Notes under the pieces: generated by a model
What the model was told of the DNA's origin: nothing
Database searches by the model: none
The model's input: the letters and a program-made list of their open reading frames with translations, nothing else
Shown: positions 3,215 to 34,941 of the stretch, in pieces
Numbering within the stretch: position 1 is the first letter of the stretch
How the letters are laid out: every line of letters begins with the position of its first letter
IMG/VR virus record: IMGVR_UViG_3300032046_000089
Coordinates: 1 to 37,941 of that record
Strand: one strand, 5' to 3'
Length of the DNA stretch: 37,941 nt
Source of the DNA: a virus
Program-made: the position numbers and the translations under genes

Positions 3215-3221
3215 GGCTGCC

Positions 3222-3692: not shown

Positions 3693-4411
3693 TACTTCAG
3701 CTCCACTACCGTTGAAAGAACAGTCGGCGGAATGGGTTGAATCGGAGCACCCGTCGGCCCTGTACCAGAAGGATGAGTGTGGGCCTCGGCCCAGCTTTTC
3801 CAATCGTCGCCTCGGATGGCCGGCGTGTCAGCGCCATTCCCTAGCTTGATCGAATCGGCTTGAATATCGGCGACACCACACACGATCGTCACGGTGTCCG
3901 AATCGGCATCCATGACAATCGTGGTTCCGGCCTTGTTCGTGATTGCAATCGAACCACTCTCGTCGAGCAGAATCTCGCTCGTGTTGCTTCCGTCCTTCCA
4001 GCCTAGCCGAACCATGGATTTTCCAGGCGTGTCATCAAACATCAAAACATGCCCGCTCGGCGTAATGAATCCCCGACGCTTCCCGTAGTTCGTTTTCACT
4101 TCATCCGGAATCGGCCTCGGCGATTTGGTATTGGCACTATCCCAGGCTCGCTTTCCGCGCCACTTCATGACTGGATTGAAAATCGCAGCTTCATAGGGAA
4201 CGTCATCTTGATTCGAAGACATCAAGATTTCGATCTCCACGATTTCGTCGACATCCGGAATGTAGAACCAACCCCAATCGAGGAGTGGTTCAACCCAATC
4301 CGCGAGAGGTTCCTGGCTTCCGGTGAAATCCGGACAAACGACTTGGATGCGACCTAGCTTTTTCTCGTCTTGATTGTCCACGACTCGTGCGAGATAGCTT
4401 ATGTAGCTCAT
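3692..4411 (-). CDS. Baseplate central spike (gpV / gp5 OB-fold-like)
   Basis: This 239-aa protein fits the central spike that caps the tail tube and pierces the outer envelope. The N-terminus (VVDNQDEKKLGRIQVVCP, about residues 10-27) is the strand pattern of the gp5/gpV/VgrG OB-fold. The middle (SGHVLMFDDTPG, then SEILLDESGSIAI) is the usual entry to the beta-helical needle. The C-terminus carries a HTHPSGTGPTG segment; HxH at the tip of P2-like spikes binds an iron ion. The gene follows the hub gene with an ATGA overlap, so translation is probably coupled. At this length it has no lysozyme domain. Confidence 0.87.
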   Translation of the reverse strand: MSYISYLARVVDNQDEKKLGRIQVVCPDFTGSQEPLADWVEPLLDWGWFYIPDVDEIVEIEILMSSNQDDVPYEAAIFNPVMKWRGKRAWDSANTKSPRPIPDEVKTNYGKRRGFITPSGHVLMFDDTPGKSMVRLGWKDGSNTSEILLDESGSIAITNKAGTTIVMDADSDTVTIVCGVADIQADSIKLGNGADTPAIRGDDWKSWAEAHTHPSGTGPTGAPIQPIPPTVLSTVVELK

Positions 4412-5571: not shown

Positions 5572-5572
5572 G

Positions 5573-6352
5573 TTACTCGTCCTCTCGAACGTAGAAGCTT
5601 GATTTGGTCACGTTGTGATCTTCCACAACTTGCTCACGCCTTCTTTTCGTATCAGTATCCTTTCGAGTGAACGCTCGATACAGGGGAAGCGACTTCGGCT
5701 CGACAACTTCTTTTGCAATTGCATCGGATGAAGGCAATTTGATAATGCTTCCAATTTGAACGAATGGCGTGGAAGGATGCCTCTTCCGGATAACGTCACC
5801 CATCAACGGACTTCCGTACTCGCGCTGGGTCAGCATTTCGTAATAGTCGGCTTGGCGCGAGCGATGATAGCGCGTCTCAGGCGGCTCGGAGACATCCAAC
5901 GTCCAAGGCTCATATCTATGAAGCTCGATGCTAAACGACACATCGCGGAGAGCGCCGGAACGAGTCGGTGGTTGATATTCATTCGAGATCTGGCGAATCG
6001 TGCAGTATTGAAAGCCAAGATGAGAATCGGCCACCCAAAACATGATGAGGGGTGGCCTCTTCAACTTCTCGTCGCGCCTGACCCACAACTTTAGAAGAGC
6101 GAGATTCGCGTAGGGATCGTTCTCTTTGCCTTCCGATTCGGATGTTAGAAAAAAGCGACCTCGAAAGGAAACCGTGTCAATGTTGCCATGAACAAATTGA
6201 GAGATCGGGCTTTGAGCATTCAACGAGAAGCGATCTGCATAGGTTGCGCCGACAGTCTCGGTCAACGACTCCGCCACGAATTGGCCCTGTAACTCTTCGC
6301 CAGTGTCGCGATTCGTTAGGAACCAAACTCTTTCTCCACCAAACAAGCCCAT
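5573..6352 (-). CDS. LysM-like baseplate / tube-initiator protein (XkdP or gp53-like)
   Basis: This 259-aa protein lies between the tape measure and the hub, where phages and contractile injection systems encode a LysM-containing tube-initiation or hub-adaptor protein. The N-terminal 150 residues look like a tube-type beta sandwich (FVAESLTETVGATYADRF, later DVSFSIELHRYEP). Around 180-215, YGSPLMGDVIRKRHPSTPF followed by GSIIKLP matches the LysM-like pattern of such adaptors. The C-terminus is charged and ends in VREDE. The ATG at 6352 has a GGAG site inside TAGGAGTCGG, which is part of a conserved leader element (6355-6380). The fold is inferred from pattern and order. Confidence 0.7.
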   Translation of the reverse strand: MGLFGGERVWFLTNRDTGEELQGQFVAESLTETVGATYADRFSLNAQSPISQFVHGNIDTVSFRGRFFLTSESEGKENDPYANLALLKLWVRRDEKLKRPPLIMFWVADSHLGFQYCTIRQISNEYQPPTRSGALRDVSFSIELHRYEPWTLDVSEPPETRYHRSRQADYYEMLTQREYGSPLMGDVIRKRHPSTPFVQIGSIIKLPSSDAIAKEVVEPKSLPLYRAFTRKDTDTKRRREQVVEDHNVTKSSFYVREDE

Positions 6353-6354
6353 GG

Positions 6355-10712: not shown

Positions 10713-12983
10713 TTAGACAGCAGCCTCAAATATACCTTGTTTGCCGATTCTGATCAAAAAACGCTCGACGGTATCAGCGAGACTCAGCGACACGTCAGCG
10801 TAAAGATCTCCAGAAGCCCGAGTCAGGTCGGTATTGTTCTCGCTATCGATCTTGATGATTGCGGCTGCCTCAAACGTCTTTCCTCTTAGAGCCCGCTTGT
10901 TCCATTCCGGGATGAAGAAGCTGCGAAGGCTCGCGACCAATCGCTTGTCCTCGATTGGATCGTTGATGCAGAACACCACCCAGTCGAAGCTCTCACGAAG
11001 GACGTTCTCGTAGTAGCACATTTGCTCGCGTTGGTGCTTCCACTTCCATGTTGGATCCGTGCTGATTGTCCGATCGCCCCAAATCACGAAGTTGCCTTTC
11101 ATCTTTTTGATGAGGCCGATTCCGAGCGGGTTGAGATATTCCTCGTTGAGGATTGCATCCTCGGTCGGGATTTTCAGAACCATCGAGAGCGTCGCGTCGA
11201 TGCCGGCTTCCGCCTTGTGATAGCCGAGATAGTCGGCCGCGATTCTGGCCTCTCTTCCGTGGATTGCTCCGGTCAAGGATACGAGCTTCAGCTTGCCCTC
11301 GCTCGGTGTCTCCGGGTCGGACACGTAGCCATAGCTTGGGAAGGAGACAACTGCGAAGTCGTTCCGGCCGATCGTGTTATTCACATAGTTGTCCGCGTCC
11401 TCTTCGGTGAGCACGGTGTCGGGAATCTCGATGCGGAACTGGTGATTCTTTGCATCGGCGTAGGCGATTCCAGCCTTCTGCACTGCCGTTGCGGTCACGC
11501 CAGGGCAGGCCAATTTCACGAGCCCGAGACTCTTCCCGACGATCTGGTTGAACAACGAATTGCTGACATCGAGAGCTTGCTCGTAGTGGGTATCTTCCAG
11601 ATCGGCGATTCCGTCTCGACCGCCTGCCAATTCGATTGGAGCCACAACCATGAACTCGTCGGCAGGTGCTCCGCTATCCGTCAAATCGGCGCCAGCCGCC
11701 ACGGTGATGACTTTGTGGGTGTTGTCGACGATGCGATATTTTTCTCTCGGATAGTTGACTTTATCCTGATAGAGCGAGCCGCCGATTAGAGCATCAGCCA
11801 CAAACGGCTTGTACTTGAGAACGGCAATATCGGCCGCTTCCCACACGGTTGTTCCTGCGGTCAAGGTGAATGGAGGAGTCCATTTGTTGTTTGGTGTGAA
11901 AGCCGAACCAACTGTCACCGAACCGAGAGCCCCGAAGAGATCGCTAACTGCCGCTGCCGCGGTCGCTCCGGAAAAGGTGATCGTGATTGTCTGCTCGACC
12001 ATCGCGTCAGTCGTGGAACCGAGAGCGCACGTTCCGCTCGCATTCCCAACGCTAGCCGGATTGAACTCGTGGATGACGGCCGTCAATGTCTCATCCGTGA
12101 TTGCCGAGCTGATTCCGTAGAAGTTAGCCGGACGAGACGCAGCGGTGTAAGCTCCCGTCCAAAGGTTCTGAACCCAAATCTCATCGTTGTTTCCGTCATT
12201 GTTGATCAAGTTCACCCAGTACCGAGTCGAGTCCGGATCTGGCGATAGATTCGGCCATTGATTGGCGAGAGCGCCATCGACATAGACGAACAAGCCGAAT
12301 TCGATCGTAGGATTCTCTTCGCCATCGCGAACCTCAACCGACAGCGCCTTTCCGTCGTTTTCGCGATAGAGATAAAAACGGAGATCGGGGCCGGTGCCCC
12401 AAGCCGTTTTCATCAATTGATCCGAAGCCACTGTGATGACTCCGGCCGCTGTGTTGCTGATGATCGGATATCGAACGTTCGGAACGGCCAGTAACTCCAC
12501 CCAGCCATCCTTCCATTCGTCTTTGAGGAACGTGTTTTCTGTGTCGAGCGTCGTCTCAGTCAACTTCCCAGACGCGCTCAGATCATCCGTATACTTCTTT
12601 GCTTTGCCTCCCCAGCGACCGCCATTGGCGGCCTTGATTTTGCCCATCGCCTTTCGGGCCGAGCTTCTCGAGTAGAGTGTGATTTCCGCTTGGGCTTCGT
12701 TGTCGTCGGTCACGCGAACAAGTAGAATGCCGCCCGCGCCACTGGCCAAGGAGTAGAAGTGTTTGCAAGCATCCGGGAGAAGCGAATCCGAGATGTAGCT
12801 GCCACACTTCTTGAAAAATTTTGATACGCTCGAAGCGACTATCAACTTGTTGGTTGGACCCTTTTCGAGGACTCCCGCATAGCCTACCCAGCCCAATGCT
12901 CCTGCCTCGATCGGCTTATCGCCTTCCGTCTCAACCACTCCGACGCCTGCCCCTCTTACCGGGCCGATCCTTCTCTGAGCCAT
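10713..12983 (-). CDS. Contractile tail sheath protein, enlarged
   Basis: This 756-aa protein is the tail sheath subunit. The N-terminus (GWVGYAGVLEKGPTNKLIV, residues about 31-49) and the C-terminal 250 residues are typical. The C-terminal part includes GGRDGIADLEDTHYEQALD, later GNFVIWGDRTIS, then FDWVVFCINDP and the sheath tail LADTVERFLIRIGKQGIFEAAV. It is clearly longer than compact sheaths of 380-500 residues. The excess lies in the middle (about residues 130-430), which is Thr/Ala-rich and resembles phage surface modules, for example TITFSGATAAAAVSDLFGA. Such insertions usually face outward. The ATG at 12983 has an AAGGAGG site. Confidence 0.92.
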   Translation of the reverse strand: MAQRRIGPVRGAGVGVVETEGDKPIEAGALGWVGYAGVLEKGPTNKLIVASSVSKFFKKCGSYISDSLLPDACKHFYSLASGAGGILLVRVTDDNEAQAEITLYSRSSARKAMGKIKAANGGRWGGKAKKYTDDLSASGKLTETTLDTENTFLKDEWKDGWVELLAVPNVRYPIISNTAAGVITVASDQLMKTAWGTGPDLRFYLYRENDGKALSVEVRDGEENPTIEFGLFVYVDGALANQWPNLSPDPDSTRYWVNLINNDGNNDEIWVQNLWTGAYTAASRPANFYGISSAITDETLTAVIHEFNPASVGNASGTCALGSTTDAMVEQTITITFSGATAAAAVSDLFGALGSVTVGSAFTPNNKWTPPFTLTAGTTVWEAADIAVLKYKPFVADALIGGSLYQDKVNYPREKYRIVDNTHKVITVAAGADLTDSGAPADEFMVVAPIELAGGRDGIADLEDTHYEQALDVSNSLFNQIVGKSLGLVKLACPGVTATAVQKAGIAYADAKNHQFRIEIPDTVLTEEDADNYVNNTIGRNDFAVVSFPSYGYVSDPETPSEGKLKLVSLTGAIHGREARIAADYLGYHKAEAGIDATLSMVLKIPTEDAILNEEYLNPLGIGLIKKMKGNFVIWGDRTISTDPTWKWKHQREQMCYYENVLRESFDWVVFCINDPIEDKRLVASLRSFFIPEWNKRALRGKTFEAAAIIKIDSENNTDLTRASGDLYADVSLSLADTVERFLIRIGKQGIFEAAV

Positions 12984-23232: not shown

Positions 23233-24420
23233 TCAGACGCCACGACCGACGTTCTTGCCCTTGACGATTGCGTCGGCCTCTTCAAACTGGACGGCGATCT
23301 TAGTGGTGATCGCGTACTGGTAGACTCCCTTGTAGATGTCGCGATCCTTCTCGATCCGGATGTCTCTGCCGATACCCATGATGAAATTCTGGAAGTGAGT
23401 CAGAAGAACCTGCGGATTCGCGGTGTAGGTCACTTTCACGGTGTCGCCGTCGCCGATGGCCGTGCCGCCACGCCGAGCCACGGTGCCTGCCGACTCGCTC
23501 ACGAGGTAGTCGGTGCTAGAGCTGTAGGCGCTCTCAGCCGTATCGAGGAGGGTGCTCTTGCTGACGACTACGCTGGAAACCGGAGCATACCGCAGAGCGG
23601 TCGCAGTCGTGCCACTGAGCACAACGTGCTGGACACATTGAGGCAGGAATTGGAGAAGGGGAACTTCGACGATCGGCACGCCATAGGGCGAATGGGCAGC
23701 GCCGCCAGCGGCGCTATCGCCGAGGCTCGTCGCACGGGTGGCCAACTTCTCGATGTAGAGCTGGGCCAGGTCGGGGGAGAGGAAGAACCGAAGAGCGGAG
23801 CGGTTCCGACGGAACTTGGTCGGAAGCTGGCGAAGCATGGAGCCGAACACGGTCAGGCCGATGTTCGCGCCTTCGGCATCGAGAACGTGACCGGAGTCGG
23901 CGAGCCGATTCCAACCATCGAACATGGAGAGATACTTGTCCTTGACGTACTTGGTTGTCGAACCGCCGTCCTTATAGTCGCTTTCGAGAATGGCCGGGCC
24001 GACGGTGTTACCGTGGATGTAGAGTTCCTCGATGTCGTTCGCCAATTGGCGAGCCATCATCTTGATGATGGAATCTTCGACGCTCTCGCCCTCGAGATTG
24101 ATCTCCTTGAACTCGTCGGAGATCTCGAACGGGAGGATGAGGCTTCTCGGAGTTAGAGAAATCTTCGAAGTCGTCAATCCACGACGGAGGCCAGGATCTT
24201 GCGCCTCTGTCTTCGGGAACGCCATTCTTCGGCCGATGCCGATCTTGTCGATATCCATCGACTCTTCGCGGAATCGCACGATGCGGGAATTGTTCTTCAG
24301 CACGCTCTCATCGATCACATAGTCGATGAATTTGTCGGCCTGCGCAGGATTCAACTTTCCAGCGGAAGCCAAGCCGTCGGTTGTGATGATTGCTTTCTGG
24401 ACCAGTTCTTCGTTCGTCAT
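23233..24420 (-). CDS. Major capsid protein (HK97 fold)
   Basis: This 395-aa protein is the major capsid protein. It follows the scaffold gene and has the HK97-type layout. An N-terminal helical arm (TNEELVQKAIITTDG) may be removed by the prohead protease. An E-loop region follows (FPKTEAQDPGLRRGLTTSK), then LTPRSLILPFEISDEFKEIN and a spine-helix segment (SIIKMMARQLANDIEELYIHG, given in two parts across 133-153). A C-terminal domain reads GVPIVEVPLLQFLPQC. The ATG at 24420 has AAGGAG upstream; the frame extends 16 residues further, but only through the ribosome site. Length is normal for uncleaved HK97-type capsid proteins. Confidence 0.9.
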   Translation of the reverse strand: MTNEELVQKAIITTDGLASAGKLNPAQADKFIDYVIDESVLKNNSRIVRFREESMDIDKIGIGRRMAFPKTEAQDPGLRRGLTTSKISLTPRSLILPFEISDEFKEINLEGESVEDSIIKMMARQLANDIEELYIHGNTVGPAILESDYKDGGSTTKYVKDKYLSMFDGWNRLADSGHVLDAEGANIGLTVFGSMLRQLPTKFRRNRSALRFFLSPDLAQLYIEKLATRATSLGDSAAGGAAHSPYGVPIVEVPLLQFLPQCVQHVVLSGTTATALRYAPVSSVVVSKSTLLDTAESAYSSSTDYLVSESAGTVARRGGTAIGDGDTVKVTYTANPQVLLTHFQNFIMGIGRDIRIEKDRDIYKGVYQYAITTKIAVQFEEADAIVKGKNVGRGV

Positions 24421-24449
24421 TTTCTTTTCTCCTTCGTTTTCTTTTCGTG

Positions 24450-25418
24450 TCACAGCACGCCGTTCCAAAGACTCTTCTTTACCTGCGCTCCGTCCGTCTT
24501 ATCGCCCGGAAGTTCCTTCGAATCGCTCCGGCTCTTCTCGAGCGTCTCGAGGCGCTTCTTCAGCTCGGCATTTTCTTCCTCGAGCTGCTTGGAAACCTTG
24601 CCCTCCGTTCCCAGCGGCTTCACTTCGGAAGCGGGAACGGAACCAAGGGGAAACTGGGAAAAAGAACTGACAACGGCCTTCGCAGCATCCGAATCGACAT
24701 CGTGGAGCAGATTCAATAGCTGGGTCACGACTTCTTTGACCGTCCCAGTTCGGGACTCAGTGAACTTCCGCGCTTTGCTGATCTCTTCGCCCTCTACTAT
24801 GATCGAGCCGTCTTCCATGATAGCGACGGCCAGGTTTTTCTTCATGCCCCTCTTCTTCTTTTCGGACGCCTCGACTTCCTCGTCGGGCGGAGCTTCCTCG
24901 GAAGGGTCGGGCTTGCCGGACTTCTTTTGGCTCTCGAGCCACGCGACGACTTCTTTGACCGCTTCGGACGGGAGACCCTTGCCCTTGAGACCTTGGAGCA
25001 TGCCAGCGACGGCCATCGGATTCATGGCCTTCTTCTTTTCTTGGCATTCCACCTCAGCGTCTTCCTCTTCCTCGTCGCCTTCTTCCTTCTTCTTTGGCTT
25101 GCCGGCCTTCTTCTTCGCGGCCTTGTCGGCTTCCTCGACTTCTTCCTTTTCCTCGTCTTCCTTCAACTTCGGCTTGCCGGCTTTCTTAGCCGCTTCCTTC
25201 TCGGCCTCTTCCTTGGCTTCGTCTTCCTTCACTTCGTCTTCCTTCACTTCGTCATCTTTCTTTGCTTTCACGACTTCGCTCCTTTCGTCGATAAACGCTC
25301 CCATGTCTTCCTCCGTCAAACGCTTGAGAACAAGAAATTGCCGCAGATTTGCAGCGCGATCAACCAGAGATACTTCCCGAACGTCAACGTCTAGAATTCG
25401 CCTTGTCTGATCTGCCAT
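24450..25418 (-). CDS. Scaffold-like head protein with Lys/Glu repeats
   Basis: This 322-aa protein lies between the protease fusion and the capsid gene, the usual scaffold position. Its first 35 residues (VREVSLVDRAANLRQFLVLK) match a segment often found at the end of XkdF/HK97-type prohead proteases ('EVSLVDxPAN'). Residues 50-130 are a low-complexity Lys/Glu/Asp/Ala region. It has repeated KEDEV units and two AAKKxGKPK units, like basic histone-H1-type tails set in an acidic context. A C-terminal coiled coil (LEEENAELKKRLETLEKSR, about 280-300) fits a dimerising scaffold. The ATG at 25418 has GGAGG upstream, with a conserved palindromic element further upstream. Confidence 0.8.
   Translation of the reverse strand: MADQTRRILDVDVREVSLVDRAANLRQFLVLKRLTEEDMGAFIDERSEVVKAKKDDEVKEDEVKEDEAKEEAEKEAAKKAGKPKLKEDEEKEEVEEADKAAKKKAGKPKKKEEGDEEEEDAEVECQEKKKAMNPMAVAGMLQGLKGKGLPSEAVKEVVAWLESQKKSGKPDPSEEAPPDEEVEASEKKKRGMKKNLAVAIMEDGSIIVEGEEISKARKFTESRTGTVKEVVTQLLNLLHDVDSDAAKAVVSSFSQFPLGSVPASEVKPLGTEGKVSKQLEEENAELKKRLETLEKSRSDSKELPGDKTDGAQVKKSLWNGVL
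25217..25261. repeat. Three 15-base tandem repeats in scaffold gene
   Basis: The plus strand reads CTTCGTCTTCCTTCA at 25217-25231 and again at 25232-25246, with a degenerate third unit at 25247-25261. The units encode the KEDEV repeats of the scaffold-like protein. A longer imperfect duplication encoding the AAKKxGKPK units lies at about 25075-25200. Such repeats expand and contract by slippage. Confidence 0.85.
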
Positions 25419-25526: not shown

Positions 25527-28283
25527 TTATACTACAGCAGCGACCCCTCCGATGGAGAATCCCGTGATCTCCTTCTCCTTGATCTTTTTCCATAGCTTGT
25601 CATCCTTCACTCGTACCGTCATCAACCATGTTCCCTCGCTAACGGATTGGCCTCCTATTTCAAGATTGACCGGAGCAAGATAGGACTCAACTAATTCGAC
25701 GCCTATCTCACCAAAGACTTGGTGGAGCAATCCCATTTCAGTTTCCCTGTTGTACTTTGCCAAGAAGTTGTGCGCCGCTCTTTCGATTGCCTCACGATCA
25801 ATCGTATCGCCCTGTGCATCAACGGCATCGGGTTCGAGCACGATGCCCGTAACCAACTGCTTATCTTTATCCACCTTCGCAATCGGCATTCCAAAGCGGA
25901 TTGTTGAATTGAAGTCCATTTCTTTCTCCTCGTTCCTTTTGTGAACCGCTCTCTTATAAGAGGCTTCGAAATCCAAGATGACTTCTTTCTTCTCGATATC
26001 ATCGACCAAGTAGTCGCGCGTCATCTTCGCATTGGCCTGATTCGATATCGTCCAGTACTGATAGTGCTTCGGAACTTGAATTCGGATCGCTTCGGGCAAG
26101 GCGGAAACTCCGGCCGGAGGCATCCAGCCTTTGGCAACGGCTTCTTTGTCCAAAACGTAAGGTCTCAGTTCATCCGGTCTGGCAAACAGCCACCGCTCGC
26201 TCGACCCCTCCCCGTCATTGTCGCCTTCAGACGGAGGAAGAACTTCAGCGCTCATCTTCAATTGACGGAAGATGACGCGATAGTTCATGCTATCGCCTTG
26301 CACGAAGTATTCGTGGAACCATGGCTTCTGAGCGCCGAATTCTAAATCGCCACGATCCACGATCAAAAAGACTCCGGGGAAATTGCGCGTCCCTCCGACT
26401 GGGAGAGCTTCGCCTTCTTCCGGAACCTTTGTCACTCCTTCGACCTCGAGCCATTTCCAGGGAGCGGGATTCTTCTTCTCAGCCAAGATGGATGTTCTCG
26501 ATGGCTTCTCCACACCCATCTTGTCGCGTAAAGCCCACTCGCCCGTTCGCCAGTTGATCTTCGAGTAGTCGCCCATTTTCTCTTTGGCGGCTTGTCGGGC
26601 TTCTGCCAGATTTGTCACTGGCTCTTTGATAGCGTCCGCTATTGCTGTATTCAACGTCCAACCAAGCGCAAGATCTTCCGGCTTGAATCCGATCCGGAAA
26701 TCTGAATGAACACCTTTCCCGCGCCAGTGTTGATGGACAACGTAAGGATATTTTCGATCCTCGGGAGGAATTGTGAGATAGGGATCGTTTTTCTCGCTCA
26801 CCGCTTTGGTCACAGGCTGCTCGTTTTCGATCTCTGCCACAATCTCGGAATGCAAAACTGCTCCGCGCGATCCGGCTATTTTGTTCATCTTCAAGACGGC
26901 CTCTTCGGCCTCTTCCGAATCTCGAACGAACATGGAGGGTGATCGATTCAACCCCGGACTCGGAGACACCAACGATGCTTGGGGGAAGTCGAAGGTATCC
27001 AAAATCTGAGATCTCTCGACGAATGATTTTTCTCGAACGTCTATTTCAGTCCGAACCACATCGAGAACGCTCAGAACAAATCGATCCTCGTTCACTATCC
27101 CCTTCGTCACTTCCTCGCTTGAGAGATTCAAGATGTCGCTCCGCGCTTCGAGAACAGCGTCGAAAACAAAATCGGTAGCCGGATTCAAGGAAGCCAGTTG
27201 TTTGCATATCAGAGGGAAGCGTTCCGTCTCATCTTGCGCTTGATCATTCAATAATGTGACCACTCCGCATTTGCGAACCGCTTGCATCTTGAATCCGTCA
27301 TGCCTTTTTTGAACATGGGCCGGGAGATAAGGAGAAGACCGAAAGCCAGATTCCGCCTTCAGATCGGCGAGCGAAATCGATACTTGAACTTGTAAAGGAT
27401 AGTCGTTGTCCGGCCCTTCCTCGTCTTTCTTCATCGCGACTTCGTGAAGCCACTCGTGACCTTTCTTTTTATTGTCAGCGTGGAACTTCTCAATAGCCGC
27501 ATAATATTTCTTCAACGATCGAATCGCCATCCTGATTCGATCGTCGTATACGTGGCCACTGAGCTTTTCCTTTTCGAAAGCCTCATAAACCTCTTTGCCT
27601 GGTTTTTTTCCAGACCAGGGCGGAGCTACCTGTCGAAACCTCGGCATCGGATGTTCTTCCGTACCATGCTCGAATATGGTCCACTTTCCAAATTTTCCAA
27701 GGGCAGTTCTCCAGGTCGAAGAGTCGAACGAATCGAGAGCATCCATCCAGGGTAGAAATCTTTTCAATCGCTGACCAACACCCAAAGCGTGCATCTTGGT
27801 TGATGGATCATGCAGAAGTTTATCCAAGGCGTGGTCCATTCGTTTGATCTGCTTCTCCGCCCAACTATTTTCCATTCCTCCCCAGCAGAGCTTCTTATTC
27901 TTGTAGATCTTCTCGAGTCGATCATCCCAAGGAAACCACATATGATCAACAAACAATGGGTCGTGTCCCTTGTCGATCATGGCAGCATAATTCTTAAATG
28001 TGATCTCTCTTTTATGCGGATGATCCAGCGTCACATACTCGTCAATGAGTTTTTTATGACTGATTAGAAATTCCATGTAGCCTTCGAGTTGGCTGCTCCC
28101 CGGCTTTCCGACTTCCGTAAAACCTCCGGAATCGACCATGATGTCGGTTTTCTTTCCGGCCTTTACCAAAGCCTCCGGAAGGCCCCTTTTGCAGTAAGCG
28201 AAGGACATCAGAATCGAGGAGACTTTCTCCTCGAGCAGCATATCAACCCCTTCCTTGGTTCCGGCTGCAAAATACCACTTCAT
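25527..28283 (-). CDS. TGT/DpdA-like - ligase-like - LigD PE-like - XkdF protease fusion
   Basis: This 918-aa protein appears to hold four domains. Residues 1-265 look like a tRNA-guanine transglycosylase/DpdA barrel (DSGGF at 51-55, LGVG at 167-170, SFDSSTW at 185-191). Members of that family swap guanine for a 7-deazaguanine in tRNA or DNA. No CxC zinc motif is visible. Residues 295-490 resemble an ATP-dependent DNA ligase nucleotidyltransferase. They have KRHDGFKMQA (326-335) where KxDG is expected, then TERFPLI and DFVFDAVLEA (371-380). Residues 512-675 resemble the LigD phosphoesterase (VVHQHWRGKGVHSDFRI at 515-531). Residues 796-918 match XkdF-type serine prohead protease, with LHQVF and a C-terminal GFSIGGVA. 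The ATG at 28283 has AGGAA upstream. An internal ribosome site precedes residue 789. Domains 2 and 3 are pattern-based calls. Confidence 0.85.
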   Translation of the reverse strand: MKWYFAAGTKEGVDMLLEEKVSSILMSFAYCKRGLPEALVKAGKKTDIMVDSGGFTEVGKPGSSQLEGYMEFLISHKKLIDEYVTLDHPHKREITFKNYAAMIDKGHDPLFVDHMWFPWDDRLEKIYKNKKLCWGGMENSWAEKQIKRMDHALDKLLHDPSTKMHALGVGQRLKRFLPWMDALDSFDSSTWRTALGKFGKWTIFEHGTEEHPMPRFRQVAPPWSGKKPGKEVYEAFEKEKLSGHVYDDRIRMAIRSLKKYYAAIEKFHADNKKKGHEWLHEVAMKKDEEGPDNDYPLQVQVSISLADLKAESGFRSSPYLPAHVQKRHDGFKMQAVRKCGVVTLLNDQAQDETERFPLICKQLASLNPATDFVFDAVLEARSDILNLSSEEVTKGIVNEDRFVLSVLDVVRTEIDVREKSFVERSQILDTFDFPQASLVSPSPGLNRSPSMFVRDSEEAEEAVLKMNKIAGSRGAVLHSEIVAEIENEQPVTKAVSEKNDPYLTIPPEDRKYPYVVHQHWRGKGVHSDFRIGFKPEDLALGWTLNTAIADAIKEPVTNLAEARQAAKEKMGDYSKINWRTGEWALRDKMGVEKPSRTSILAEKKNPAPWKWLEVEGVTKVPEEGEALPVGGTRNFPGVFLIVDRGDLEFGAQKPWFHEYFVQGDSMNYRVIFRQLKMSAEVLPPSEGDNDGEGSSERWLFARPDELRPYVLDKEAVAKGWMPPAGVSALPEAIRIQVPKHYQYWTISNQANAKMTRDYLVDDIEKKEVILDFEASYKRAVHKRNEEKEMDFNSTIRFGMPIAKVDKDKQLVTGIVLEPDAVDAQGDTIDREAIERAAHNFLAKYNRETEMGLLHQVFGEIGVELVESYLAPVNLEIGGQSVSEGTWLMTVRVKDDKLWKKIKEKEITGFSIGGVAAVV
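25917..25931 (-). promoter_or_regulatory. Internal ribosome-binding site before XkdF protease domain
   Basis: Inside the fusion gene the minus strand reads GAGGAG, six bases, then ATG (25919-25917), at Met789, directly before the protease domain. Translation here would give a 130-aa product (25919 to 25527), the size of the protease domain alone. Glu/Lys codons (NEEKEM) could produce such a site by chance, so the call is tentative. Confidence 0.45.
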
Positions 28284-28340: not shown

Positions 28341-28694
28341 TTAACAAAAGCTGATTTTCATATCCTCAACTCTGGCGCCGTTTTCTCCGTCCTCCGAAAC
28401 CTCCACAGCAACGTAACGGTCCGTATAATTCAACCGAATCCAATTCATAAGATCTCGAGCCATCATTTCACACGATCTGCTTCCAAGATCGAATGGCCAT
28501 AGCTGAATATGCTGATCCAAGCGGTCTTTGAAACCCAAAAACTCGATGTCCCTATCATCGTGCTTTTGCTGGATGTAAACCTTCACATGGAACAAATGAC
28601 GATGAGGGTTCCTCAGATGAGCGTGCTTGAACATCGGAGCGTTCGCCCAACAATGTATTCCGGTGAACGTAGTCGTTATGATCGCAGTTACCAT
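28341..28694 (-). CDS. Diverged QueD-like T-fold protein
   Basis: This 117-aa protein looks like a second, diverged member of the 6-pyruvoyl-tetrahydropterin synthase/QueD T-fold family. His14 (TGIHCWANAP) and His31/His33 (RNPHRHLFHV) align with His14, His27 and His29 of the QueD at 29869-30234, so the zinc triad is kept. The catalytic Cys of QueD (LCRNLHGH) is replaced by Leu (HLRNPHRH). The C-terminal part, with SCEMMARDLMNW and VAVEVSEDG, aligns with SENLARFLAEDC and CAEVSVRETEG. I prefer the ATG at 28694, which has GAGG six bases upstream. A GTG at 28706 overlaps the FolE stop but has no ribosome site. It probably acts on a pterin or deazapurine intermediate; the substrate is unknown. Confidence 0.72.
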   Translation of the reverse strand: MVTAIITTTFTGIHCWANAPMFKHAHLRNPHRHLFHVKVYIQQKHDDRDIEFLGFKDRLDQHIQLWPFDLGSRSCEMMARDLMNWIRLNYTDRYVAVEVSEDGENGARVEDMKISFC

Positions 28695-28702
28695 TGGGTT
28701 CC

Positions 28703-29266
28703 TCACAATGAAAGCAGAGACATCAGTTCGGATCTGGCTTTGCTATCTTCCAAAAAAACGCCGATCAATTTATGTGTTCGCATCGTGGGGTTCGTTTGAC
28801 CAACGCCTCGCATCGACATATACATATGATGACCGTCGATATAGATAGCCACACCCTTCGGTTGAATCGCTTCTTGGATTCCGTTCGCAAGCTGATCCGT
28901 CAATCTCTCTTGGAGCTGCAATCTACGAGAGAAGACCTCCAACATACGAGCCAGTTTCGAGACGCCTATCACTCGATTCCGATCTGGAAGGTATGCGATC
29001 GTACAAGTGCCAAAGAAAGGAAGCATGTGGTGTTCACACATGCTCCAGTAATTCAACCCGCGCAGCATGACGATTTCATCACACCGATGCTCAAAGACCT
29101 TTGCGTAGTCTTCACAGGCTTGAGAGTAACCCGCGTAAATCTCAGACCACGAGCGAACGACTCGAGCGGGTGTCTCAAGCAAGCCTTCGCGATCGGGATC
29201 TTCGCCGATCAACTTCAACATCTGCCGAACCAAAGAACACGCTTCTTCGAATTTGTTTTCATCCAC
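28703..29266 (-). CDS. folE: GTP cyclohydrolase I (FolE)
   Basis: This 187-aa enzyme is GTP cyclohydrolase I. It makes 7,8-dihydroneopterin triphosphate from GTP, the first step of the queuosine/7-deazaguanine and folate routes. Family signatures are GEDPDREGLLETPARV (21-36), SMCEHHMLPF (75-84, zinc and active-site Cys77 and His80), VIGVSKLARML and QERLTDQLANGI. The third zinc ligand of the family (Cys181 in E. coli, in 'HxCMxxRG') is Tyr149 here (HHMYMSMRGV); the codon is TAT. I start it at the GTG at 29266, with AGGAG six bases upstream. It sits between QueE and the QueD-like gene. Activity without the Cys needs testing. Confidence 0.93.
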   Translation of the reverse strand: MDENKFEEACSLVRQMLKLIGEDPDREGLLETPARVVRSWSEIYAGYSQACEDYAKVFEHRCDEIVMLRGLNYWSMCEHHMLPFFGTCTIAYLPDRNRVIGVSKLARMLEVFSRRLQLQERLTDQLANGIQEAIQPKGVAIYIDGHHMYMSMRGVGQTNPTMRTHKLIGVFLEDSKARSELMSLLSL

Positions 29267-29275: not shown

Positions 29276-29872
29276 CTACGCCAAATCGAATCGTTTGTGG
29301 CCTTGGAAACTGAGCCGCCAATTCCCCCTCATCGCCAGATTCAGACAGCGAACGGCGTTCTGCTTCAGATAGGGGCCATCAACCGGCTGAAGATATCGAT
29401 GAGAAAACAACCCAAAGTTCTCACAATCCTTGATGTCGAGGTCTGTCAATTCCGAGCAGACCGGAACTTTCAGCTCGTCGCCAGCGGTGGCTCGAACGTA
29501 AGAAAGGCCGGGAGGAAATTTCGGCGACACTGTGATCCAATCAATAAATTCGTCCAGCTCGAGTTCTCTCAATCCGTTCGTCTCAACGTGGACTTTGAAG
29601 CCGGAAGAAAGAAAATAGGACAAGTCACTGAGGTCGTGAATCGTCGGCTCTCCTCCAGTTAAGCAGACGGTATCGATCGTGGTCATCTCTGTTAACTGAA
29701 TCACTCGCCCATAGATTTCCTCGGCCGTCATCACTGCCTTTTCTCGATGATCGGTATCACACCAAGCGCAAGCCAGATTGCAACCGGCGAGACGAACGAA
29801 GCACATCGGCTTTCCTGCCCAATAGCCCTCGCCCTGCACGCTATTGAAAATTTCAACGATTGGATATTTCAT
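29276..29872 (-). CDS. queE: 7-carboxy-7-deazaguanine synthase (QueE)
   Basis: This 198-aa radical-SAM enzyme converts 6-carboxy-tetrahydropterin to 7-carboxy-7-deazaguanine. It has SVQGEG (11-16), the cluster motif CNLACAWC with Cys31, Cys35 and Cys38, GGEPT (73-77) for SAM binding, and VETNG in the next strand. Length is at the compact end of the family. The start ATG (29872) overlaps the QueD stop as ATGA; the stop TAG is the first part of the FolE ribosome site (TAGGAG). It is the key enzyme showing that the cassette makes a 7-deazaguanine, not a folate. Confidence 0.95.
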   Translation of the reverse strand: MKYPIVEIFNSVQGEGYWAGKPMCFVRLAGCNLACAWCDTDHREKAVMTAEEIYGRVIQLTEMTTIDTVCLTGGEPTIHDLSDLSYFLSSGFKVHVETNGLRELELDEFIDWITVSPKFPPGLSYVRATAGDELKVPVCSELTDLDIKDCENFGLFSHRYLQPVDGPYLKQNAVRCLNLAMRGNWRLSFQGHKRFDLA

Positions 29873-30234
29873 TCCGCATTCCTTGGCAGCACGTAAGTCA
29901 CCACCGATCCTTCGGTCTCTCGCACGCTGACTTCAGCACAATAAATATTTGGAAATCTCCTCATGCAATCTTCCGCAAGGAACCTAGCTAGGTTTTCGGA
30001 TGTCGGAGGAATGGAGGTGAATTCGGGGAAATCGTTCAAGCATTGATGATCATACTTGTTGGCAATTGACTTGATATCGCCAAAATCCGCGACCATTCCA
30101 TTTTCGTTCAAATCGACGGCCGATAGCTCGATGTGAACCTCGATGCTATGACCATGTAGATTCCGACACAGTCCCGGATGTTCGGGAAGGAAGTGTGCAA
30201 TCTCAATCACAATCCTCTTCACTAGCTTATACAT
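29869..30234 (-). CDS. queD: 6-carboxy-5,6,7,8-tetrahydropterin synthase (QueD)
   Basis: This 121-aa enzyme of the PTPS/QueD family converts dihydroneopterin triphosphate to 6-carboxytetrahydropterin. Zinc ligands His14, His27 and His29 lie in IEIAHFLPEHPG and RNLHGHS. The catalytic Cys23 is in LCRNLHGH. YDHQCLND and SENLARFLAE are the usual Asp-His and Glu motifs, and the C-terminus has VSVRETEGS. The ATG at 30234 has AGGAGG upstream. It is followed by QueE with a four-base overlap, so the pair is one translational unit. Length is normal. Confidence 0.95.
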   Translation of the reverse strand: MYKLVKRIVIEIAHFLPEHPGLCRNLHGHSIEVHIELSAVDLNENGMVADFGDIKSIANKYDHQCLNDFPEFTSIPPTSENLARFLAEDCMRRFPNIYCAEVSVRETEGSVVTYVLPRNAE

Positions 30235-30243: not shown

Positions 30244-31143
30244 CTACGGTTCGAGATCTTTCTCCGAAACCTCAGAATAGCACTTCTCACGTTCATCCAT
30301 CTCGGATTCGTCCTCTGAATCCTCCTCGCTCTTCCTCACAGGTTTGCTGCTTTCGAACTTCGTCCAGTCCGGTTGAGAGACTCCGTTCTTTTCGAAGCTA
30401 GATGAGGCGTCGTCCAATCCGTCATCTGGCGGAGCCGGGTGTAGAATGCCTCGGCCGAAAAGGGTGTCCACAATCCTCGAGTGCAGATTGCTGATACCTT
30501 CCACCGTGAATCCGGGCTCGAGACCCTTGGCCGATCGCCGGTACATCAAATGTAAGGCCCAGTGAGCGCCCTTCAATTCCCGGGTGGTCATCTCTTCCGG
30601 GTTCGAGTCTGGAGCGAGCTTGTCGGCCTTCTGAAGCTGGCTGGGTGGCAGTCCAACGTCCTCGGCGATGTCCAGGAAGAAGGGTTTGGTATCGGAATCC
30701 ATTTTCGCAGGATGGAAGGTGATGACCTCCGGGCCTCGACGCTTCGCCTCTTCCAAGATCTTCCGGAGAAGCTGATGGAGAAAGCTCCCCGAGTACATGA
30801 AGGTCTCCGGGCTCTTTCTCCACGAAGCGAACCATGCGAGCACGATTCGGAAGTCGTCTCGCAGAACCTCGTCACTTACCTTTGATGGAACGTAGTTGGC
30901 TGCGTCCTTAATCTTCTCGATGTCGGATGTCTTCTCTTCCGGCTGAGAGAGTACCGTCAATGGAAGAACCCCAGATCCACCAGGAAGCGAGGCCGGATTC
31001 TTCAACCCACCTCCAGATAAAGAACCGGAGTCAATCGCTTGTTGAATGACCGCATGGGGTTGCTCCTCCTCGCCTGTCAGCGATTTTGTGACGCGAAGGT
31101 TGCGCTCTTCCGGAACAATCATCATTCTCTTTTTCTTACCCAT
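30244..31143 (-). CDS. Unknown protein before the 7-deazaguanine cassette
   Basis: This 299-aa protein starts at the ATG at 31143 (MGKKKRMMIVPEERNL) with AGGAG seven bases upstream. The frame extends to 31293, but only by reading back into the head morphogenesis gene. The first 80 residues are Ser/Gly/Pro-rich. Residues 90-230 are helical with VLAWFASWRKSPETFMYSG, LLRKILEEAKRRGPEVITF and THMYR-type basic segments (ALHLMYRRSAKGLEPGF). The last 50 residues are acidic (SEEDSEDESEMDEREK). No catalytic motif or family is recognised. It lies between head morphogenesis and QueD. Confidence 0.75.
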   Translation of the reverse strand: MGKKKRMMIVPEERNLRVTKSLTGEEEQPHAVIQQAIDSGSLSGGGLKNPASLPGGSGVLPLTVLSQPEEKTSDIEKIKDAANYVPSKVSDEVLRDDFRIVLAWFASWRKSPETFMYSGSFLHQLLRKILEEAKRRGPEVITFHPAKMDSDTKPFFLDIAEDVGLPPSQLQKADKLAPDSNPEEMTTRELKGAHWALHLMYRRSAKGLEPGFTVEGISNLHSRIVDTLFGRGILHPAPPDDGLDDASSSFEKNGVSQPDWTKFESSKPVRKSEEDSEDESEMDEREKCYSEVSEKDLEP

Positions 31144-31153
31144 GACTGCTCTC

Positions 31154-32155
31154 CTATTCTTCGGAATCTCGCAGAATCGAGGAAGAATCAATATCCACGT
31201 TGCATCGACAGTTGAAATGGAACGGAGGCAAGATGATTCCCTTGCTCGCCAATTCTTCCGAGTCCAACCCTTCCACATCGGACAAGCCGACAAACGGATG
31301 AGCCTCTTTCACTTCGTCTGGCGTATCGGCATCGAGTTCCTCATCCGCCATCTCGCCGGCCATTTCCACTGTAAATGATTTTCCGTTCATCTCGGAACAA
31401 ATCGGACAAGTGCGCTCATCGTCCGGATTGACAACCACGTAGTTGGTAACTTCCAATTCTTGAAGCGAACGAATCTGCCCTTGAGTTCTGGCTGTCGTAG
31501 AAGCCGAAGCAGCCAATCCTTCGAAGTAGCTTTCGACCGATCCGTTGTAGCCGCTCGGTGTTGAGATATACCCAAGCACGCGATCAATCTCCTCTCGGAG
31601 TTCTTTTCCGGCAAAAATCCGATCGCCTCCACCTTCTAGAATGACCGACTCGGCGACGTCGCGAATCTTCGAAGCGACTTCCTTCTGATACCCATCAACT
31701 TCGGAGATCCAGAAAAGCTGCTGGTTCTGAATCGCACGAACCGCCTGCCGATCGGCTTGATCGAAAACAGGCGAAAGAACGATTTTCTTCTTCGCCTTCT
31801 CAACCGGCTGTGCTCCCATTCGTTGAGCTTTCACCCAAAGAGACTCTCGACCAAGACGATAGATGCGCGCCATATCCTCGGTCAGTTGTCGGCGAACCTC
31901 AGAACTCCATTCGTCCATTATGTTCCGAACGGCTGAGGCAATTGCTTCGGGAGATTTTCCATCCCGAGCAAGACGGGCGGCTTTCTCCGCTGCCTCACGA
32001 CGGAGCACGTTCCATTTCGCGAGGAAGTATTGACGGAGCTTCGCCTCAATCCGCCTTGTCTGAGCAACAGCCGAGACGCTCGCCACTTTCGACAAAATCG
32101 AATCGAACGTGTGGAGGCGCAAAAACAGATCGTCGATTTTCTCGAGGGTGATCAC
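31154..32155 (-). CDS. Head morphogenesis protein (SPP1 gp7 / Mu gpF-like)
   Basis: This 333-aa protein is a minor head protein of the SPP1 gp7/Mu gpF group, thought to enter the prohead with the portal and to affect DNA packaging or ejection. The C-terminal signature is clear: NPDDERTCPICSEMNGKSF, then a spacer and LPPFHFNCRCNVDI, giving a Cys/His cluster. Upstream, ASTTARTQGQIRSLQEL is the usual helix. The N-terminal half is mostly helical. The start is the GTG at 32155, which overlaps the portal stop as GTGA. It ends 10 bases before the start of the 299-aa gene. Confidence 0.9.
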   Translation of the reverse strand: MITLEKIDDLFLRLHTFDSILSKVASVSAVAQTRRIEAKLRQYFLAKWNVLRREAAEKAARLARDGKSPEAIASAVRNIMDEWSSEVRRQLTEDMARIYRLGRESLWVKAQRMGAQPVEKAKKKIVLSPVFDQADRQAVRAIQNQQLFWISEVDGYQKEVASKIRDVAESVILEGGGDRIFAGKELREEIDRVLGYISTPSGYNGSVESYFEGLAASASTTARTQGQIRSLQELEVTNYVVVNPDDERTCPICSEMNGKSFTVEMAGEMADEELDADTPDEVKEAHPFVGLSDVEGLDSEELASKGIILPPFHFNCRCNVDIDSSSILRDSEE

Positions 32156-34941
32156 TCATGCTCCTCGTGCTTGGACAATTCGCTCCACTCTTGATCGAGC
32201 CTTTTCTGAATCGCAGCCAGACGATCGACAAAGTGTTGGTCTGAGCCCGTCAACATTTCGATCGTCTTCAGCGCCGTCACTTGTTGACCAACCTCTGTCG
32301 GCTGCGCTTGATTCTTGACCGCTTCGGCCATAGTCATCGAGAACGGCAGATCTTGCGGGAAGTCGGTCGGGAAATCTGGAAGCTCGATGCTCAACACATC
32401 CTCGAGAATCATTCGAGCAATTCGAGGCGTCATTCCGCCTGTCCGTTCCGCGCCAGCAAGGATCGAAACAAGCTCGCTGTTGTCTGTCGTGTTTGGCGAG
32501 TTGGAATGATACTTGTGGTACTTGATTCCCATCGCCGGAAAGATTATCCGGTTGAGCATGTCGTCGAAATCATCTCGCTCCGGAGCGAAGACTTGTTCGT
32601 CGGCTAGCCGACGAGAAGTGTCGGCGGTGTTGCCCTGCACTGTTACCTTTCCCTCGCGACGAGTGAAAAACAGATGGCCAGGAACTTCATAACAGTACAC
32701 TTTTCCAGAATACCATTCTTCCTCAATCTGCTCCGATGTCACCAAATGCTCAATCCGGTCGGGAGTAATCAATACGCGGTAGCAATCGGATTTGTTTCCT
32801 TTTCCCTTCGTCATAACCATATTTGCACGATGGCCGAGGTGAATCGCCATCATCTGAACCTGATCAGCAAGCTCTTGTGATGTAGTGGAGTAGCTCCACG
32901 ACGTTCTCCCTTCGCGGGAGTCAATCGTTCCATCCGTGTTCTGCAAATTTCGCAAAGACAGCGATAGCGTGTCGGAATCGTAGTGCAAGAATTCCATCGG
33001 CAAACGCTTCTCAGAAGCTTTGCGCCCACAATTGTCGCGGAGCATTTTCCACAGCACCTTATCAGCAAGAATGAAGTGAACCATTCCATTTTTATCGGTA
33101 GCCGGTTCGAATACTCTAAATCCCAATTCTTTCAATTGGGAATAGATTCGCTTGAAGACTTCGACCTTTCTCTCCTTCTTCGCCGATAACGAAATGTTAT
33201 ACATGCAGCGTCTTTTTCCTCCGACGAATTCGGGAGTCGTTGAGCCATCGGCAACAAAACAACTGACAAATTCAACCCAAAGCGAAAGGGGTATTTGAAC
33301 CTTTCCTCTTTTTCCAGCGTTCGGCCCATCATTCAAAATCATCTCAGGAATTTCCACGAACCGTTCCGCTTGAAGAAGCGGTTCTCGAGAAAAAGCGGAG
33401 GACATGAAAGAAAATCGATTGGCTTCAATATCCTTCGCCCGAACCTTTTCGAATCCCAAATTTGCTTTGATCCACATCCAATGTTCGGGGGTGACTAAGA
33501 CATCGGTGTTGCGGTTCTCAAAGTGCATCATGGGGCCATCGTAGTCGTACAGATGAATTCCGCCAATCGGCTCACGATACTGGAGCTGTAGACTGTCGGG
33601 ATTCAAAGTAGCGATCAGTTCTCCTTCCTCGATCTCCCAATAATACTTCCACCCTTGTTCGGTCAAGGTTTGGGTGTCTTCCGAATAACAGGCGCGGGTG
33701 TAGTCATCTGCCCTACCTACCAGAATCGGAGGAAGGCGGAAGGCCCGCCGAATCTTGTCTTGGTTGTTTTTCGAATATTGCTGGAACAGCTCATCCGAAT
33801 GTTGCTCTTTGGTCAACGGCTTGATGTCGATTTTGACCGGGTTGCTGTCTTCCCCTTCGAAAGCGGATTCGGCTTCGACGATCAAGAACTTGGAATAGTT
33901 GTCGCTGCCCTGGATCTGCGATTCCACGAATTCGCTGATACGGCTAATGGTCGCCGAGGTCAATTGACCATTCGATACGAGCATGGCCATCGAAGGAATG
34001 TTGTTGTTCTTAAATGTGATGTAATTGATCTCCTCTGAAGATCGATCGCCGAAGATTGCCAACAAGTTCCCGATGAATCTGGGGAGGCCGTAGGGAGAGC
34101 GAGAGCAATATAGCTTCATGTGAATGGCTTCGCTGGCCTTTGAGCTTTCCGACATCTTCGCAAGTTCGGCGTCCTTCACTTCACGCCCTGATGTATTGTC
34201 AAACGTGCGAGGATCGCCAAAATCTTTGAACCAACGAGTCTCGAATCCCGAAGAGACTTGCACGTTCTTGAAGCACGAAATCCGTGACTGACAATGACGG
34301 CGGAACCGCCTCCACGCTTTGATGGTTTTCACCTCAATCGAATTGTCTTGCTGCATTTCAAGGACAGGCATATCGACAAGAGTCGCCACAGCTTCAGCCA
34401 CGCCGAGGCGCATTTGATAGCACGGCAGATGGTTGAAGCCTTGAATATCACCGCTAGGCCCACGAATGACTTCGAACCAAGCGTTGCCACACGACTCGAG
34501 ATCTTTTCGAAGACGCTTTCGGAAAGAGCGGAACGAATCGGAAAGACAAGCGTAGGCGAAGAAATTTTCCAGACGAACCTTTTCTGTCTGCACGGTCTTA
34601 TCGAGTTCTTCGTCGGGCTTCTCCGAATCTTTTTTGATACGCGAAAGAAAACGATGACCAAAGCCGTCGATGTTCGCGACCATGGCGTCAATGCAAGGGC
34701 CAAGCTCGCTGCTCTGCTCATTCAACATCGTGAGCGTCAAGAGATCGAAAGGCGGAATGAGAACCTGCCCGTCGCTTATCAATTGCTCAAACGGATCTTC
34801 CGGAAGCTCTTTCGAAGCCATCGTTCTATCGGCGATCTGCTTCTTGACCGGAAAGACGAGTGCTCGCAAAGCCGACTTGTTGGATTTCTCGGCCCGCTCT
34901 GTCGAAGCACGGAGTTCGTCATTTGGCTTATGGTCACTCAT
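32152..34941 (-). CDS. Portal protein precursor with intein
   Basis: This 929-aa frame is a portal protein interrupted by an intein of 354 residues (Cys418-Asn771). The spliced portal would be 575 residues. The external parts match the PBSX/P2 Q-like portal group. Examples are EINYITFKNNNIPSMAMLV, SNYSKFLIVEA-type strands, then RAFRLPPILVGRADDYTRA before the intein. TADTSRRLADEQVFAPERDD follows it. The portal forms the 12-fold ring at the capsid vertex and threads DNA. The ATG at 34941 has a GAGG site nine bases upstream; the next gene overlaps as GTGA. The C-terminal tail (residues 870-929) is Gln/Glu-rich and helical. Confidence 0.93.
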   Translation of the reverse strand: MSDHKPNDELRASTERAEKSNKSALRALVFPVKKQIADRTMASKELPEDPFEQLISDGQVLIPPFDLLTLTMLNEQSSELGPCIDAMVANIDGFGHRFLSRIKKDSEKPDEELDKTVQTEKVRLENFFAYACLSDSFRSFRKRLRKDLESCGNAWFEVIRGPSGDIQGFNHLPCYQMRLGVAEAVATLVDMPVLEMQQDNSIEVKTIKAWRRFRRHCQSRISCFKNVQVSSGFETRWFKDFGDPRTFDNTSGREVKDAELAKMSESSKASEAIHMKLYCSRSPYGLPRFIGNLLAIFGDRSSEEINYITFKNNNIPSMAMLVSNGQLTSATISRISEFVESQIQGSDNYSKFLIVEAESAFEGEDSNPVKIDIKPLTKEQHSDELFQQYSKNNQDKIRRAFRLPPILVGRADDYTRACYSEDTQTLTEQGWKYYWEIEEGELIATLNPDSLQLQYREPIGGIHLYDYDGPMMHFENRNTDVLVTPEHWMWIKANLGFEKVRAKDIEANRFSFMSSAFSREPLLQAERFVEIPEMILNDGPNAGKRGKVQIPLSLWVEFVSCFVADGSTTPEFVGGKRRCMYNISLSAKKERKVEVFKRIYSQLKELGFRVFEPATDKNGMVHFILADKVLWKMLRDNCGRKASEKRLPMEFLHYDSDTLSLSLRNLQNTDGTIDSREGRTSWSYSTTSQELADQVQMMAIHLGHRANMVMTKGKGNKSDCYRVLITPDRIEHLVTSEQIEEEWYSGKVYCYEVPGHLFFTRREGKVTVQGNTADTSRRLADEQVFAPERDDFDDMLNRIIFPAMGIKYHKYHSNSPNTTDNSELVSILAGAERTGGMTPRIARMILEDVLSIELPDFPTDFPQDLPFSMTMAEAVKNQAQPTEVGQQVTALKTIEMLTGSDQHFVDRLAAIQKRLDQEWSELSKHEEHE
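32629..33690 (-). mobile_element. LAGLIDADG-type intein in portal gene
   Basis: The intein runs from Cys418 (TGT) to Asn771 (AAC); the next extein residue is Thr772. Block A is CYSEDTQTLTEQGWKYYW, with TPEH (484-487) as block B. A homing-endonuclease region has FVADGS (562-567) and a second motif ending NTDGTID (668-674). Block F/G is VYCYEVPGHLFF, ending VTVQGN. The penultimate residue is Gly, not the common His. Phage inteins ending GN are known, so splicing is still likely. The insertion splits a conserved portal segment, DDYTRA/TADTSR, the kind of site inteins use. Confidence 0.92.

Follow-up and report, generated by a model that had tools for sequence, protein, structure and literature searches.

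A viral fusion protein that joins a DpdA-like base-exchange domain, a ligase remnant and a LigD-type 3'-phosphoesterase to an XkdF-type prohead protease

Results

Four domains share one open reading frame

We analyzed the metagenomic virus contig IMGVR_UViG_3300032046_000089 over all of its 37,941 bases (hereafter, the window), in which a single open reading frame (ORF) at 25527-28283 encodes a protein of 918 amino acids (aa). A preliminary description, made from the letters alone, had read this protein as a four-part fusion of a base-exchange domain of the tRNA-guanine transglycosylase (TGT)/DpdA type, a ligase-like domain, a domain resembling the 3'-phosphoesterase (PE) of LigD, and an XkdF prohead protease. 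The coordinates and the open frame given there were right; the strand, which it left unstated, is the minus strand. The ORF starts with ATG, is preceded by a plausible AAAGGA ribosome site, and runs across 918 codons with neither an in-frame stop nor a frameshift between the domains. All of the motifs quoted earlier are present, namely DSGGF at residue 51, LGVG at 167, FDSSTW at 186, HDGFKMQ (in QKRHDGF at 325), HQHWRGKGVHSDFR at 517 and GFSIGG at 908, and all four domains were confirmed by fold or homology. In the window protein itself, Pfam and NCBIfam detected none of TGT, ligase and PE, and these three were identified via PHROGs, relatives and structure instead. Profile searches against PDB sequences returned no match for TGT or for PE, and fold comparison alone gave matches.

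The TGT/DpdA-like domain spans aa 1 to ~290 (aa 1-280 at 27444..28283, minus strand) and was recognized by PHROG 887, tblastn and its predicted fold. PHROG 887 (queuine tRNA-ribosyltransferase) matched this region with E 2.9e-14, as it did the four fused TGTs first tested (4/4), and tblastn aligned it with DpdA-type proteins of Vibrio, Arthrobacter and Mycobacterium phages at 25-29% identity. An AlphaFold model built from nine related sequences (predicted local distance difference test score, pLDDT, 73; predicted template modeling score, pTM, 0.76) has the strand and helix order expected for a (beta/alpha)8 barrel of TGT type. Its best 50 fold matches in the PDB, with E from 6.8e-6 to 1.1e-4 and probability 1.00, were without exception tRNA-guanine transglycosylases. 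Fold search and PHROG 887 both bear out the TGT call. Asp51 of DSGGF is invariant in the nine TGT sequences, and Asp187 of FDSSTW, which follows LGVG, is kept in eight of them; the ninth, from L057 (related loci are given L numbers throughout), ends before this position. By the position of their motifs, the two residues are predicted to be the catalytic-type Asp pair. The CxCxxC zinc motif of tRNA TGTs is missing from the TGT region of the window, a feature of the sequence that speaks against a tRNA enzyme.

The second domain (aa ~315-477; 26853..27341, minus strand), identified by alignment to relatives, is a degenerate nucleotidyltransferase domain of an ATP-dependent DNA ligase. In the relatives this domain matches PF01068 (E 5.8e-24 to 9e-10) and is followed by an OB domain. 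Across an alignment of 28 domains (the window and 27 from relatives), motif I KxDG is altered in the window to QKRHDG, with Arg in place of the nucleophile Lys, which is intact in 27 of the 27 other domains. Motif III has lost its Glu to Val (FDAVLEA versus FDAEIEA in relatives), and in motif IV Glu is replaced by Arg and Lys by His (GSRGAVLH versus GSEGxVxK). By the alignment and our own domain hidden Markov models (HMMs), the window ligase also lacks motif V and the OB domain. The earlier ligase-like call thus holds as homology to ATP-dependent DNA ligases and fails as a working ligase: ligation by the window protein is very unlikely because the motif I, III and IV residues and the OB domain are lost. 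The ligase domains of the relatives should be active.

The third domain (aa 500-780, with the PE at ~500-680 and a C-terminal extension beyond it; 25944..26786, minus strand) was assigned by its predicted fold as a LigD-type 3'-phosphoesterase. The model was built from 39 sequences, with the row of the archaeal virus ANMV-1 left out of those put to structure prediction, and reached a pLDDT of 90.7. The only PDB matches with E<0.001 were six LigD or archaeal PE chains (3p43, 3p4h, 3n9d, 3n9b A, 3n9b B and 5dmp; probability 1.00), and the TM score against 3p43 was 0.85 by target length. A metal triad of H519, H526 and D528, together with R530, is invariant in all 39 PE sequences. We equated these residues by motif order, with a spacing one residue longer, with the metal-binding residues His42, His48 and Asp50, plus Arg52, of Pseudomonas aeruginosa LigD (PMC8656161). 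The beta-barrel fold and the invariant metal ligands uphold the LigD PE-like call. The phosphate site (His84/Tyr88 in LigD) is not clearly conserved, as no HxxxY precedes the EG motif in the window PE; Lys604 and Trp611 lie near the His84/Tyr88 position, and His657-Glu658-Tyr659 further on. PF13298 did not match the window PE; in L043, a relative, it does match the first PE domain (PE1), above its cut-off. A second PE domain (PE2), absent from the window, is found in most relatives. In XkdF-bearing relatives the metal ligands of PE2 are mostly lost (QEQ...WWLR), and in several others they are retained (QYH...HYDLR).

The C-terminal domain (aa 787-918; 25530..25925, minus strand) is an XkdF-type prohead protease (Peptidase_S78_2), in agreement with the preliminary description. 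PF14550 matches aa 801-916 with E 3.4e-32 (111.5 bits versus a curated cut-off of 24), and PHROG 3017 (head maturation protease) matches with E 7.9e-37. His854 and Ser910 are candidate catalytic residues. We considered whether the 'DNA methyltransferase' label of phrog_1530 denotes a known methylase-XkdF fusion and rejected it: the Lactococcus phage gene in question encodes a 350-codon protein between capsid genes. This XkdF-type protease gene (L065 2399-3448), whose label also names phrog_1530, is likely misannotated.

The fusion lies among late head genes and 7-deazaguanine genes

The window belongs to a contractile-tailed phage, with genes for a sheath, a baseplate wedge and a tape measure protein. 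We looked for end repeats and found none, nor were there replication genes among the ORFs examined; the contig is therefore probably incomplete. Its late genes all lie on the minus strand. First come terminase, an intein-bearing portal gene and MuF, then a 349-aa ORF, QueD, QueE and FolE, and after these a small ORF, the fusion, scaffold, capsid protein and tail genes. FolE, QueE and QueD thus lie upstream and scaffold and capsid downstream, as first described, with the correction that a 121-aa ORF sits between FolE and the fusion.

QueD (29869..30234, minus strand) belongs to the 6-pyruvoyl/6-carboxy-tetrahydropterin synthase family and matches PF01242 (PTPS, E 1.1e-30). The QueE-like radical SAM enzyme (29276..29872, minus strand) matches PHROG 2076 (E 3.5e-31) and Pfam Radical_SAM, and FolE, GTP cyclohydrolase I (28703..29266, minus strand), matches PF01227 (E 3.9e-63). 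QueE and FolE lie upstream in every TGT-bearing record (the window, L004, L021, L027, L057, L058 and L061), and so does QueD, except in L004, whose contig begins too close. The 121-aa ORF (28341..28706, minus strand) overlaps FolE by 4 bases, is histidine-rich (HAHLRNPHRHLFHV) and is weakly PTPS/QueD-like, with a Pfam PTPS match at E 0.029 that is below the cut-off; it may encode a QueD-like enzyme or an accessory protein.

On the other side, beside the protease, is a scaffold-like protein (24450..25418, minus strand). At its C-terminus it aligns with the scaffold end of PHROG 3017, a family of protease-scaffold proteins. It is followed by a major capsid or virion structural protein (23233..24468, minus strand; PHROG 1623, E 4.7e-79). 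Upstream of QueD, the 349-aa ORF (30244..31293, minus strand) has no match in Pfam or PHROG and was found by our own HMMs to carry two conserved modules, 'DDFR' and 'AHW', with the consensus LRDDFRxxLAW... and ...AHWxLH...HPAPPDxGLDxxSxxFE. These modules form a separate upstream ORF in the window and are fused ahead of the ligase/PE core in relatives. The MuF-type minor head protein (31154..32155, minus strand) matches PF04233 (E 9.1e-8). In three relatives the MuF ORF is enlarged to 1215-1301 aa (L003 991-4896, L017 2-3649 and L058 2050-5769), which suggests that further domains are fused to the minor head protein.

The fusion belongs to a family with a swappable modification module

Giant ORFs of this kind were found at ~30 distinct viral loci, usually flanked by MuF on one side and scaffold/capsid genes on the other. 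The PE alignment drew on 36 loci from scans of viral contigs and 7 from scans of genome contigs, with some loci recurring. By our own domain HMMs, the family architecture is [DDFR][AHW], nucleotidyltransferase (NTase), base modifier, ligase, OB, PE1, PE2 and XkdF, with XkdF often C-terminal. The NTase module is Pol-beta-like, with a GG...DID motif read by eye. The modifier is a Dam-like D12 methylase in L002, L003, L013, L016, L017, L029 and L035, a C5 methylase in L008 and L023, and DpdA in the window, L004, L021, L027, L058 and L061; L057 is cut inside TGT. Pfam independently confirms D12, C5, ligase and XkdF in relatives. The window protein is accordingly no isolated case and belongs to a broad family in which the modification module is swapped.

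Six distinct records have TGT fused to the core, five of them with complete C-termini (the window, L004, L021, L058 and L061), while L027 is cut before XkdF. The window order TGT-ligase-PE-XkdF recurs in the independent contigs L004 and L021, and versions that additionally bear the NTase module are found in L027, L058 and L061. Another contig (L006) matches the XkdF end at 99% identity and continues into scaffold and capsid. The fusion is not a product of chance or misassembly, given that independent contigs repeat its domain order. A metagenomic record without detected end repeats might in principle be a chimeric assembly, or its frame might be misread so as to join separate genes, but we consider such an artefact exceedingly improbable: the order is shared by independent contigs at ~30-55% identity, on which grounds we reject misassembly, and the frame is open over its whole length behind a plausible ribosome site.

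The Dam-bearing L002 and the TGT-bearing L004 are 72% identical over ~970 aa and have unrelated N-termini; they are sisters on the PE tree with support 100/99. At least three changes are required to account for the TGT label on this tree. One supported group unites 19 rows, the window among them, and nearly all of these were seen with XkdF. The XkdF-bearing fusions occupy a late head-gene position beside scaffold and major capsid protein, and after MuF where the contig covers that side. Family members occur in contigs from Planctomycetota, Dehalococcoidia, Thermoplasmata, Archaeoglobales and other archaeal assemblies. Since both bacterial and archaeal assemblies hold members, viruses of both domains probably carry the family, with the caveat that viral contigs can be binned wrongly.

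Two observations concern the modules outside this common plan. L041 encodes PE2+XkdF as a separate 275-aa protein (12046-12873), and the polyprotein is thus split in some relatives. In L021, the ORF before QueD (3870-6353) carries a 2H phosphoesterase domain (2_5_RNA_ligase2, E 1.2e-9); the 2H domain is among those named for polyvalent proteins (PMC5512222).

Discussion

Relation to known systems

The closest precedent is the polyvalent proteins (Iyer et al., 2017; PMC5512222), multi-enzyme chains among late head genes of phages, which also occur in conjugative elements. They carry methylase, Pol-beta NTase and 2H domains and, when present, a C-terminal capsid ('assemblin-like') peptidase. The window protein has the feature by which they are recognized, several unrelated enzymatic domains in one chain among late virion genes; it would work like them, belongs with them in its testable features, and includes domains of DpdA and LigD PE type. 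LigD, DNA ligase, queuine/TGT and XkdF are absent from the main text of PMC5512222, whereas the constant core of the present family is ligase, LigD-type PE and XkdF, with DpdA optional.

Phage DpdA and DpdA2 accompanied by FolE, QueD, QueE and QueC (Hutinet et al., 2019; PMC6884629) share with the window a TGT-type enzyme beside 7-deazaguanine genes. In the example examined, however, that of Vibrio phage pVco-14, the DpdA-type enzyme is a separate protein of the replication region, whereas that of the window is the N-terminal part of a head protease in a late operon. LigD of bacterial non-homologous end joining (PE, ligase and polymerase) likewise has an ATP-dependent ligase and a PE in one chain, with the metal triad kept. 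In contrast to LigD, the family has the order ligase-OB-PE1-PE2, neither an archaeo-eukaryotic polymerase domain nor Ku was seen, and the chain is fused to phage modifiers and a protease; in the window, moreover, the ligase is dead. The Dar system of phage P1 (DarA/DarB and others; PMC12810830) also ties DNA-protection proteins to head morphogenesis, and DarA is cut by the prohead protease, but the P1 proteins are separate rather than protease-fused, and P1 is without DpdA, ligase and PE. ANMV-1 AJP62006.1, annotated 'ATP-dependent DNA ligase' (L018 3194-5800), is an NT-ligase-OB-PE1-PE2 polyprotein and an archaeal-virus member of the family, but has no base modifier or XkdF in its chain. Ordinary XkdF/PHROG 3017 proteases are of the same family and stand in the same place before scaffold and capsid, but lack TGT, ligase and PE. 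The open-access literature searched describes no fusion of a prohead protease with ligase, LigD, XkdF or DpdA in such chains. The earlier remark that no described protein has this order therefore stands for that literature, but the relatives show that the protein is not unique.

A possible polyprotein for DNA modification in the prohead

A DNA-directed DpdA is the natural reading of the fused TGT domain because FolE, QueE and QueD adjoin it. As the best explanation of the whole, to which we give about an even chance, we propose a prohead-targeted, protease-tethered DNA-modification polyprotein of the polyvalent type. The C-terminal XkdF protease, made beside the scaffold, would enter the prohead with it as head maturation proteases do, and the enzymes on the same chain would thereby be brought to or into the prohead at a fixed ratio. 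The protease would then cut the linkers during maturation and free the modules. The DpdA-like module might exchange guanine in viral DNA for a 7-deazaguanine from the co-encoded FolE-QueD-QueE pathway, the PE module might clean 3' ends, and the active ligase of relatives might seal nicks. DNA packaged, or later ejected, would in this way be mended and shielded from restriction. In the window version the ligase is dead, so base exchange and 3'-end cleaning would remain. We favor action of the TGT version in late infection because the base-synthesis genes share the late operon; for the methylase and ligase versions, action after ejection is equally open.

Judged from sequence, the protease fusion and the synteny make a link to packaging or capsid loading plausible. 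Each of the swapped head modules is a DNA modifier (D12/Dam-like, C5 methylase or DpdA). In polyvalent proteins the capsid peptidase is C-terminal and is likely to process the chain in the course of assembly (PMC5512222), and P1 provides a tested case of co-ejected DNA-protection proteins coupled to the prohead protease (PMC12810830). The interdomain linkers are enriched in [VILTSAR]xKA, with 40 occurrences versus 12.6 in shuffled linkers; QPVTKAVSE precedes the window PE, and a similar LVQKAI lies close to the N-terminus of the capsid protein.

Several points weigh against this proposal. The linker pattern was chosen after looking and homologous linkers were partly counted more than once, and we regard the signal as a lead only. 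QueC is not on the 38-kb window contig, which makes the inserted base uncertain; it is present in the records of L021, L027, L058 and L061. With a QueC outside the contig or supplied by the host, preQ0-type products are likely; otherwise 7-carboxy-7-deazaguanine (CDG), the QueE product, is possible as the inserted base. The chains of L009-L012, L014, L015 and ANMV-1 lack XkdF, which means that the enzymes can work in the absence of a protease tether; in L009, an apparent separate protease-scaffold gene, read by eye, lies next to the fusion. Lastly, an ejected DpdA would need a supply of 7-deazaguanine in the new host, which weighs against action after ejection.

The relatives without XkdF in the chain also fit a late-operon enzyme that acts in the cytoplasm, where self-cleavage would free DpdA and PE to work on replicated DNA before packaging, outside the prohead, and the fusion would set their amount equal to that of the head protease. 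The genes for base synthesis share this late operon, and the DpdA-type protein of Vibrio phage pVco-14 stands alone by DNA polymerase genes, its chemistry requiring no capsid. Co-expression, however, does not require fusion to a protease, and XkdF stays C-terminal across the well-supported 19-row PE group while the head modules turn over; we regard the cytoplasmic alternative as possible but doubtful. It is rather unlikely, in our estimate, that the modules are chiefly cargo in the manner of P1 Dar, packaged to act in the next host by mending and modifying the entering DNA and countering restriction. The methylases, the 2H phosphoesterase of the L021 upstream ORF and the NTase do resemble the phage-injected polyvalent repertoire (PMC5512222), and P1 provides a precedent for co-ejection (PMC12810830), but base exchange requires free 7-deazaguanine, the synthesis genes of which lie in the late operon, and very large polyproteins would need cleavage to pass the tail. 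The dead ligase of the window and the PE2 domains of XkdF-bearing relatives, mostly without His/Asp metal ligands, could also mean that DNA-acting domains are kept as DNA-binding or scaffold mass in the prohead, with catalysis secondary or lost. This structural role is improbable: the TGT Asp residues and the PE1 metal ligands vary little or not at all, and the sharing of one slot by three unrelated kinds of modification enzyme makes most sense if their activity is used.

If the steps proposed for the prohead-targeted polyprotein hold, base modification would be tied to capsid maturation, beyond replicating cytoplasmic DNA, and the family would be a clear case of a phage enzyme kit made as a polyprotein with its maturation protease. 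The modular fusion suggests that the assembly of the virus particle includes DNA modification and repair. This is testable in a family whose single slot takes Dam, C5 methylase or DpdA, with one core, three marks and one expected location. More tentatively, and with more doubt than confidence, viruses of bacteria and archaea may use a self-processing capsid polyprotein that fuses a swappable DNA toolkit (a base modifier such as DpdA, nucleotidyltransferase, ligase and 3'-phosphoesterase) to the maturation protease, so that DNA would be modified and mended inside the capsid or at its mouth. The family also supplies new viral LigD-type phosphoesterases and ligases, and makes the annotation of the ANMV-1 protein firmer.

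Inteins in neighboring genes

The window portal gene (32152-34941, minus strand; 929 aa) contains an in-frame intein at ~aa 417-775 with a LAGLIDADG domain, which matches Pfam LAGLIDADG_3 (E 2.9e-7) and Intein_splicing (E 4.9e-4). In L035, the terminase ORF (617-3184, 855 aa) has its match split into TERL 12-315 and 664-855, and the portal ORF that follows (3185-6094) is long, at 969 aa; both of these genes look as if they, too, contain inteins.

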